Source: Diacronema lutheri
Lineage: Eukaryota > Haptophyta > Pavlovophyceae > Pavlovales > Pavlovaceae
Length of the DNA: 64,000 bases
Assembly (NCBI GenBank): GCA_019448385.1
Contig: JAGTXO010000041.1
Coordinates: 248,001-312,000, forward strand
Direction: 5' to 3'
The translations under genes and the position numbers were made by a program. This document shows positions 1 through 3,183 of this stretch, in pieces. A model generated the notes under the pieces. It searched no databases. It saw only the letters and a program-made list of their open reading frames with translations, and was not told the origin of the DNA. Numbering within the stretch: the first letter of the stretch is position 1; the number at the start of each line of letters is the position of its first letter.

Positions 1-1602
1 GCGGGGCGGGGTGGGACGCGGCGCGGTCGGCGGGCGGCGGCGGTTGCGGCGGTGGCGGTGGCGGCGACGGCGCAACGGCAGGGAGCGCGCCTCACAAGCG
101 AGACGCGCCTAAGCTGCGCGCCGGTGACGTGCACAATGTTGAGGGGCTGGAAGGGGTTTGAAACGGCCTCCGAGTAGTAGCAGAGCAGCTCCGTATCGTA
201 GAGGCACAAATAGCGCGAGCGCCAGCACACGCGCCGGCTCGACTGTTTGAGCAGGTAGCCCTGCTTGGTCGAGATGCGCTCGAGCAGCACATTCGAATCC
301 GTACGCGCGATCGGGCCGGGCTCGTCGGGCCCGCCGTCGGACCTCGAGCGCGCGGCGTCGATGAAGTGGCAGAACGCGGCGCTGCAGCAGATCGCCTCGC
401 ACGTGAGGCATGCGCGCACATACCGCTCGAGCGCGAGCCGCCGCTCGGCGATGAAAGCCGCGTCCAAGTTGCCAAAGGTGCGCTTGGGCGGGAGCAGCCT
501 TCCCGCCGTGTACACGCCGCGGCTGCCAAACTCGCGGCGCAGCATCTGGTCGAGCAACCTGAAATGCGTGTACCGGCGCGAGGAGCGCAACGTCATCTGA
601 GCACCGCGCACCTCAATCAGCGTCTGCAGCTCGTACGCCACGTAGTCGCGCCCCGCCTTGTCGTCGCGCCGCGTGCTCGTCTCGGGGATGGCCGCGCTGA
701 TGAAGTCGATCGCGCGACGGCCGTGCGAACCGCCGCCGCCGCCGCCACCGCCGCCGTGCGCGAGCTGCGCCGCGTCGCCGAGCGCGCCGGCCGCGCCTCG
801 CGCCGCTGGCGCGCGGCGGTGGCTGTGCGGCGTCCTCGGCTTGTACAGCACCGACGTGACGAACTACCGACGCGCGGGGGGCGGTGGCGCGTGCATGTGC
901 GAGGGCGGGGGCGCGGGCGGGAGGGAGGGGGGTGGGGGCGGGGCTGGGTGGGCGGGCCGGCGTCATGCGCGCGCGCGCGCGGCGCGCGGACGGAATTGGC
1001 GGACGGACGCGCGAGCGCTCTCGCGCAAAAGGGCAGCGCACCGCTTCCCGGAATCGTGTGCACATCGAGAAGACGACCACCGCCGTCGCTGCGCCGGCCC
1101 TGTCGACCGGTGGGAACGGCTGGCCGCCATTGCCACTTTGCGCGACCACGGCGCCCGCGCGCGCGCTCGCGGCGCCGGCGGCCACGGCGCACGCTCCGGC
1201 GGGCGCGCGCTGCGCGCCGTTGCCAAGGCTGCCAACAGTGCCGTGCAGGAAGACGTGGTTGAGCTGCACGTGGACGGGCGGCTTGTCGCCATCGCCCGCG
1301 AGGTGCGGCAGGTTGAGGAGGAGGTGGGGCGGGAGCATCATCGAGGCGGCGTGCTGCACGAGCAAGTCCTCCTTTGGCGGCACCATCTGCGTGAACGGCG
1401 TCCTTCGCAGCTCGACGAGCGAGTACGGATCCGAGTTGACGCGCGCCTGCCTGAGGCCCTCATTGGAGGACGATGTCTCGAGCCCCGATTGCGCCGAGCC
1501 CGACGAGCCGGCGGTGGTCGAGCGCGCGGTGGACGATTTGCCGCCGTGCGCGCTCCCGCACACGGCCGCGCCGTGCGCGCCCCCCTTGCCGCCGCGCGAG
1601 CT

Positions 1603-1641
<39 letters not shown>

Positions 1642-1971
1642 CGCCGGCGGCTGACGCGCGACGGCGAAGTTGTTGATGTTGCCCAGCGCGTCGAGCACGG
1701 TCGGCGCGGACGGATCGTGCTTCCACTGGCCGTCGATGATGAACTTGTATTGGTGCGTGCCCGGCTTGAGCTCCAGCTCCTTGAGCCACGTGCCCGGCTC
1801 GTCGGCCGACTGCGCCATCGGCGTCTGCTTCCAGTCGTTGAACGTGCCGCACACGGACGCGCTGCGCGCGCCGTGGGGCCAGCGGATCGTGACGACGACG
1901 AGCGCGGGCGCGGCCGGCCGGCCGTCGCCTTCGGCCGACGCCGCCGCGCTATGCGACACGTCGTTCCCCAT
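1..1971 (-). CDS. AMPK/SNF1 beta subunit fused in frame to PX and PH domains (3' end outside window)
   Basis: The start at 1971 gives MGNDVS, a textbook N-myristoylation site (Gly2, Ser6), as on animal AMPK beta. Residues about 22-105 form a glycogen-binding CBM48 domain (CGTFNDWK, HQYKFIIDGQWKHDP, NINNF). After a Gly/Ser linker comes the C-terminal ASC domain (PPHLLLNLPHL, HVQLNHVF, then VVVFSMCTRF). Its last strand, FVTSVLYKPR, lies across an intron (donor GTGCGC after 1042, acceptor TAG before 863, both phase 0). An earlier intron near 1100-1235 is likely but its borders are unresolved. Beyond YKPR the same frame runs on with no stop and no ATG before the next domain: a short Gly linker, a PX domain at about 705-300 (ELQTLIEV, RYTHF, LLPPKRTFGNLD, ERRLALERYV) and a PH domain from about 275 (KQGYLLKQ, RYLCLYDTELLCYYS). 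A GTGAGG donor at 95 may end this exon. AMPK beta is the scaffold and glycogen-sensing subunit of the energy-sensing kinase; PX and PH bind phosphoinositides. The fusion is seen in sequence; its function is inferred. Confidence 0.8.
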
Positions 1972-2149: not shown

Positions 2150-3082
2150 TCACTCGGCCCAGGGCAGCTCGCCCGCGTAGATCGCGTCGGAGCAGTAAGC
2201 GAATAGCTCCTGCAGCTCGGGGCAATGCTTCGGGTAGCCCGCCATGTCGTGGAATGGGTTGCGCGCCAGCCGCTTGGCGGTCAGCCGCGCGTCGACGCAG
2301 CCGTACGGGTCGTGCGCGAAGAGCGCGGCCGAGTTGAGGTGCTCGCCGTCACGCACGGCCTGTGAGACGCCTTCCGCCGGGTCGATGCCCACGAAGGCGA
2401 ACCGCCGCTCGGGCCAGCGCAGCGCCGCGCGGTGCATCTGCGCAAACCGGCGCCGCTTGAAGCCGAACGAGACGACGGTGAGCTGGCGCGGGTACGCGCC
2501 CGTTAGCTGGCGGAAGCGGCACAGGCTGAAGAGCACATTCTCGAACGAGTCGTGCGCGTGCTCCTCGAGCAGCGCGCGCTCGCGCACGGCCGCGTGCCCG
2601 CTCCAGCCGAGGGCGTCGGCAACCTCCCAGTAGCTCTTCGCCTCGGAGCGCGGGCCGGCGCCGTGACGCGTCATCCCGCCCGAGAAGAGCAGCAGCGCGC
2701 GCGCGTCGCGCGCCGCCAGCTCGACGCCCTTTGCAATGTGCTGCACGAAGGCGCGCACCTGCCCGCTCCCGCGCTGGTACGGCTCGAGCGCCCACGCGTC
2801 GTCGCGCAGCACGCTCTCGGGCGTGAGCGCAGCGTGGGTCGTGAGCACCGCGTGCCCGCACACGACGATCAGGTGGTCCAGCTCGCCCCACGGGTTGTCG
2901 CCCGCGGGCAGCGCGTCGCGGCTGAACGGGCGGCGCGCGAGCGCGGGGACGCGGCCGAGCAGCAGCTCGCGGTACTGGAGGAGGAAGAAGACGACACCGC
3001 CGACGACAAGCTGCGTGCGGCATGTGCGCGCCTTGCCACCCCGCCCACCGTGCGCGGCGGCGCCCTCCCACGACGCGCGCAT
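2150..3082 (-). CDS. DUF218/YdcF-like membrane protein
   Basis: The ATG at 3082 opens a 310-residue single-exon protein. One hydrophobic segment (residues about 24-44, LVVGGVVFFLL) suggests a signal anchor. The rest carries the DUF218 pattern: LDHLIVVCGHAV near the start of the fold, LLLFSGGMTR in the middle, then SEAKSYWEVADALG, EEHAHDSFENVLFS and LTVVSFGFKRRRF. This matches the eukaryotic (fungal and plant) DUF218 proteins rather than bacterial SanA. Those are small single-pass proteins whose biochemical role is not firmly known. The gene is divergent from the glycosyltransferase gene at 3184, leaving about 100 bp for both promoters. The family call is confident; function is unknown. Confidence 0.8.
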   Translation of the reverse strand: MRASWEGAAAHGGRGGKARTCRTQLVVGGVVFFLLQYRELLLGRVPALARRPFSRDALPAGDNPWGELDHLIVVCGHAVLTTHAALTPESVLRDDAWALEPYQRGSGQVRAFVQHIAKGVELAARDARALLLFSGGMTRHGAGPRSEAKSYWEVADALGWSGHAAVRERALLEEHAHDSFENVLFSLCRFRQLTGAYPRQLTVVSFGFKRRRFAQMHRAALRWPERRFAFVGIDPAEGVSQAVRDGEHLNSAALFAHDPYGCVDARLTAKRLARNPFHDMAGYPKHCPELQELFAYCSDAIYAGELPWAE

Positions 3083-3183
3083 CGGCCGCCTTCAGCCCTC
3101 GGTGCGCGGCGCCATACTCGTTCTGTCGGTCAGCAGGATGGCGCCGCCCGGCGCGTAGGCCGCGAGCACCGGCCGGTGTGGCG

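Follow-up and report, generated by a model that had tools for sequence, protein, structure and literature searches.

The marine alga Diacronema lutheri carries a minus-strand gene that very probably encodes an AMPK β subunit and a PX-PH-PH module on one polypeptide. It is probable, though somewhat less so, that this single gene is an AMPK β paralogue whose C-terminus has been extended by one PX and two PH domains, giving the protein a phosphoinositide-type membrane address. The first-pass annotation had proposed a fusion of AMPK β with PX and PH domains; the fusion itself was borne out by the anatomy of the gene, while the spacing argument used in its favour and the guess that the missing 3′ part could encode a phospholipase D were not. 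The window, i.e., the whole 64,000-nucleotide stretch that was analysed, corresponds to positions 248001-312000 of contig C92, and region C92:234001-252000, in which the gene runs on beyond the window edge, was also taken in. The genome searched comprised 43,492,796 bases in 103 contigs. The published assembly of D. lutheri NIVA-4/92 is described as 43.503 Mb in 103 contigs, with a GC content of 73.25%, obtained from PacBio and Illumina reads, and three RNA-seq libraries served in its annotation (PMC8379373).

With splice sites predicted from sequence alone, the gene has four exons and its product 916 residues. Exon 1 (1042-1971, minus strand, as are all gene coordinates below; 930 bases followed by GT, phase 0) carries the start codon, the MGNDVS N-terminus, the carbohydrate-binding module (CBM) and most of the ASC region. 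The ATG at 1971 is the only minus-strand ATG between 2160 and 1960. Intron 1 (864-1041) is followed by exon 2 (96-863), which holds the last ASC strand, a Gly/Ala-rich linker, the PX domain and the first part of PH1 in a single frame. Intron 2 (GTGAGG...ACACAG, starting at 1-95) runs past the window edge. Exon 3 (C92:247948-247196) and exon 4 (C92:247064-246765) lie outside the window, encode the end of PH1 and PH2, and finish with a TGA stop codon at C92:246765. The three predicted introns (178, 147 and 131 bases) are all of the GT-AG type and in phase 0. The splice positions 1042 and 96 implied by the first-pass annotation proved consistent with this model, since a GT follows both and leaves phase 0, and beyond the window edge, where it had proposed to look, the gene does extend, with two more exons and then a stop. 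The predicted order in the protein is thus an MGNxxS start, AMPK1_CBM, an ASC region ending in YKPR, a 40-codon linker, PX, PH1 and PH2.

The N-terminal half has several features of an AMPK β subunit. MGNDVS (1971-1954) matches MGNXXS, the myristoylation motif of animal AMPK β (PMC4995730). The CBM (PF16561, AMPK1_CBM; residues 27-104, positions 1660-1893) scored 78.2 bits on the joined protein against a cut-off of 26.8. When the AMPK half was compared with solved structures by phmmer, in the 877-residue version described below, AMPK β-1 chains were recovered (best E 1.6e-20), and of the 21 solved sequences that matched at E≤0.01, AMPK/SNF1 β chains made up the top 16. The ASC region was less well recognized. 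Its first part (LPPHLL to RFREA, 1042-1335) was covered by a second, weak β-1 alignment (12.9 bits, i-Evalue 0.51), obtained with a query from which a 117-base stretch had been removed; in it LPPHLL was aligned and the end fell at YKP. The last strand, FVTSVLYKPR (834-863), was matched by PF04739 (AMPKBI) at profile positions 49-71 only (residues 297-319), with 18.7 bits, below the curated cut-off of 24.3; on a typed fragment containing a four-residue slip the score was 21.7 bits against the same cut-off. The PF04739 profile found no match in the D. lutheri genome itself, a search in which introns split the ASC and no control matched either, and which therefore carries no weight. The ASC is also interrupted by a low-complexity insertion of 52 residues; a 117-base intron could account for 39 of them. 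This low-complexity stretch (1236-1120) is bounded by GT and AG and lies in phase 0, so that it can be read as a coding insertion or as an intron; in the latter case the product would have 877 residues. Because AMPKBI stays below its cut-off and the ASC insertion is of uncertain status, assembly of the trimer is not assured.

The C-terminal half contains three putative lipid-binding domains. The PX domain (330-713, outer limits approximate; Pfam stretch 581-357) was recognized by PF00787 with 46.9 bits (E 4e-12) in exon 2 and with 44.7 bits (residues 405-479) in the joined protein, the cut-off being 21.6. Its best solved relatives are the PX domains of sorting nexin-17 (SNX17; E 4.2e-8) and KIF16B (E 2.6e-6). 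PH1 starts in exon 2 (96-269) and is completed in exon 3. The piece in exon 2 alone scored 24.2 bits with PF00169, just under the cut-off of 25.1; upon removal of the predicted introns the PH1 score rose to 48.7 bits and PH2 appeared, with 32.2 bits, each scored as a fragment, and the joined protein showed two PH stretches totalling 69.9 bits. The matches to PX, PH and CBM greatly exceed what chance would give.

Whether these domains still read lipids has to be weighed. The RR(Y/F), PPxK-type and (E)RR motifs contact PI3P in the lipid pocket of PX domains, and the D. lutheri sequence keeps RRYTHF (406), PPKRTF (435) and ERRLAL (450) in the alignment with KIF16B, and RY, PPK and RR in that with SNX17; the domain is, by its motifs, probably of the PI3P-binding type. 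PH1 resembles the pleckstrin PH domain (E 7e-6); K and R in its first strands are kept, as is much of the basic pattern. On the other hand, lipid binding by PX and PH domains is often weak or absent, and many PH domains do not bind lipids specifically. PH2 is the more divergent copy; its match extends over 142 residues for 96 profile positions, and it therefore holds a long insertion. The fusion could be real and its PX-PH-PH part a tail for regulation or protein docking that has lost the ability to read lipids. The motifs kept in PX and the basic pattern of PH1 speak against this reading, which we regard as unlikely, although it is the best placed of the alternatives.

A PX search of the alga's own genome gave at least 20 places at E≤0.001, the AMPK β-PX gene included. 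Two of the matches, C94:46179-46415 and C95:25392-25628, agree in score, frame length and profile range, which suggests a duplicated stretch or redundant contigs. When window positions 111-863 were searched against the same genome, the gene itself and two weak places were found, on C6 (E 5.6e-4) and C46 (E 0.0078). These were rejected as relatives of note, since Pfam detected no PX in the matched stretches (no family on C6, and on C46 a sub-threshold HSA match of 17.3 bits, cut-off 23). Exon 2 gave 21 and 300 pattern matches in the viral_contigs and genome_contigs collections, respectively, and no tblastn relative in either; these collections hold viruses, bacteria and archaea, so nothing follows from them on conservation among algae.

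The case for one gene rests on the joint between the two halves. The first-pass annotation had the AMPK β frame running through a Gly linker into PX and PH, and this reading held: the last ASC strand and PX share exon 2, in which one frame, beginning with FVTSVLYKPR, stays open all the way between the acceptor at 863 and the donor at 96. The continuation from ASC to PX in one frame, extending past the window, was thus confirmed at the level of the predicted gene. The joint is indeed short, although the linker (714-833) counts 40 codons from YKPR to AIDFIS rather than the approximately 45 reported. Its shortness had been taken to leave insufficient room for a terminator and a new promoter. That argument failed, because an upstream co-directional frame ends only 178 bases before the ATG at 1971, and with neighbours at such a distance at the same locus tight spacing does not argue for a fusion. 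This upstream frame (2150-3091, minus strand) matches DUF218 with 29.0 bits (cut-off 27.6). Nor is the stop-free linker rare: it contains no ATG and no stop codon in any of the three frames, but when 20000 random 120-base stretches were drawn from the minus strand of this GC-rich window, 5914 shared this property, and rarity was dropped as an argument. The weight of the fusion lies instead in what a two-gene model would have to supply, namely a stop as well as a start. Downstream of YKPR, frame 0 stays open as far as the donor at 96, and the earliest stops of frames 1 and 2, at 619 and 615, are already within the PX coding region. With the ASC end and PX in one exon, a linker devoid of stops and ATGs, and the stops of the other frames inside PX, two ordinary genes are hard to draw.

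Base composition cuts both ways. In favour of one gene, exon 1 and the PX/PH portion of exon 2 are alike in third-position GC (0.92 and 0.90). The linker counts against the fusion reading. By codon position, its GC was 0.93/0.80/0.88, as compared with 0.70/0.58/0.92 in exon 1, 0.60/0.50/0.90 in the PX/PH portion of exon 2, and 0.82/0.83/0.80, 0.82/0.88/0.84 and 0.80/0.86/0.88 in the three introns; the linker is thus nearer to the introns than to its neighbouring exons. A coding linker rich in Gly, Ala and Arg would have the same profile, which by itself does not show coding. A single-sequence AlphaFold model of exon 2, with a mean pLDDT of 36.6, gave no usable information.

An alternative that keeps the continuous frame is that two products arise from the same DNA, the β subunit reading through and a separate PX-PH-PH protein being made also, or mainly, from an internal start. 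Neighbouring frames at this locus can be as close as 178 bases, and a route in frame with PX does exist, from the ATG at 896 via a 45-base GTAG...ACAG intron into the linker. Such an intron would be short next to the 131-178 bases of the three predicted ones. Moreover, of the three ATGs between 1042 and 560, that at 966 is out of frame, that at 896 reaches a stop after 10 codons unless spliced, and that at 596 lies inside PX. We consider this alternative improbable. Whichever frame it is read in, a transcript with the last ASC strand would reach PX without encountering a stop, so that the fused protein would exist even if an internal start were used. Still less probable is an assembly or consensus error that joins, or locks in one frame, two separate genes. 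The joint is a GC-rich repeat of Gly codons and a difficult template; against such an error stand the combined PacBio and Illumina data of the published assembly, presumably the one analysed here, with a PacBio coverage reported as most frequently about 315-fold (PMC8379373). A frameshift would follow from a single-base error in the linker, yet there is no ATG or stop in any linker frame, and errors of whole repeat units would keep the frame because the unit is three bases.

PX followed by PH also heads the phospholipases PLD1/2 and plant PLD-ζ, from which an AMPK β-PLD enzyme had been surmised, and this can be practically discarded, because the frame ends after the second PH at C92:246765, an open frame on the opposite strand (C92:244994-246505) comes next, Pfam finds PX and PH but no PLDc family in the product, and the genome profile search gave no PLDc match on C92, both of its two matches being on C5. 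The convergent frame (plus strand) was matched weakly by the fungal Zn(2)-Cys(6) cluster profile, with 19.2 bits against a cut-off of 21, which is unexpected in an alga. In another large neighbouring frame (L002:5257-9000, minus strand), a Kelch match that stays under its threshold (35.5 bits against 50) precedes an extended repetitive region rich in Ala and containing tandem repeats.

The AMPK1_CBM profile found four places in the genome: C73:139003 (121.2 bits), C30:316606 (85.2 bits), the window gene (83.4 bits) and C92:119801 (52.3 bits). The frame downstream of the C30 match ends in ILLKPPPRW and then a stop, 4 residues past LKP; Pfam finds no family in this piece, and the ASC was assigned by eye. 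At C92:119801 a single open frame reads 159 residues past an ASC-like LYTR, Pfam confirming the CBM only and the ASC again being assigned by eye. The ASC may therefore not need to be terminal in this organism. This second AMPK-β-like frame of the contig (C92:119204-121075, plus strand) lies ∼130 kb from the window gene and has, by eye, a long insertion in the ASC region much like that of the window gene. The frame of the C73 paralogue holds RFRAKFVTLVLYKPF, scores 23.7 bits with AMPKBI (cut-off 24.3) and reads on past YKPF, although it may contain an intron. Judging from these frames, it seems that one β-like gene ends at the customary point and that at least one more reads beyond it. A candidate AMPK α kinase domain is present at C9:1363838 (68% identity, E 1e-61, the best match to an AMPK α probe); the α C-terminal domain profile (PF16579) found no match in the genome, a search in which no control matched either.

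Compared with known β subunits of AMPK, SNF1 and SnRK1 (PRKAB1/2, Sip1/Sip2/Gal83 and AKINβ), the D. lutheri protein is alike in its MGNxxS start, its CBM and an ASC strand ending in YKP, but it runs past YKP into PX, PH and PH, and its ASC has an insertion. Unlike SNX17 and KIF16B, it has no FERM or kinesin part detectable by Pfam, and its PX is preceded by AMPK β and followed by two PH domains. With the phospholipases D it shares the order PX then PH, but it lacks PLDc, has a second PH, and then ends. The plant SnRK1 subunit AKINβγ is a known precedent for the remodelling of an AMPK-subunit module, the CBM, through domain fusion (PMC4032982). There the CBM is fused to the CBS repeats of γ, whereas here it would be the ASC that is joined to lipid-binding domains. 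No description of an AMPK β-PX/PH fusion was found among the titles and abstract openings of the open-access literature, hence a weak absence; the excerpts of PMC9664231, PMC6766888 and PMC11449223 treat AMPK with no mention of β architecture.

In yeast and animals the location of AMPK is set by β N-termini, myristoylation and adaptors (PMC6244292, PMC4995730). Yeast β subunits are reported to modulate the location of the kinase, Sip1 itself relocating to the vacuolar membrane upon glucose depletion (PMC6244292). In the animal case, as outlined in PMC4995730, β subunits with MGNXXS are myristoylated, and glucose starvation moves the complex to speckles, which the authors speculate to be lysosomes. 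The simplest mechanism for the D. lutheri protein would be that β carries its own membrane address and places one AMPK pool on PI3P-bearing membranes. As in other AMPKs, the CBM/ASC half would assemble with α and γ; the MGNDVS N-terminus would be myristoylated, and the PI3P-type PX together with the basic motif of PH1 would give the trimer a built-in phosphoinositide address, which may be that of endosomes, the vacuole or autophagic membranes. Myristate and lipid readers could then act as a coincidence detector that places one AMPK pool near membrane targets. Membrane targeting is, by a small margin of confidence, the role we favour for the fused protein. The more specific proposal is tentative and rather doubtful: that myristoyl, PX and PH jointly form such a detector, and that the pool with the lipid-reading β is activated or meets its substrates solely at particular membranes (endosomal, vacuolar or autophagic), with no need for adaptors of the AXIN/LAMTOR type.

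The fusion, seen in one genome, is well drawn and probably real, and a β subunit with a PX-PH-PH tail is probably a new form of AMPK β. Since domain fusions are common in protists, we regard the gene as a strong lead rather than a discovery. It offers a concrete construct that can be tested. The coordination of TOR and AMPK is described as unexplored in microalgae (PMC9664231). The cellular site of AMPK shapes what the kinase senses and phosphorylates, and the fused β would let it dock directly on internal membranes. If this is true, a lipid-reading β would be a natural experiment in which energy sensing has been wired to phosphoinositides, in an alga that is studied for its lipids.
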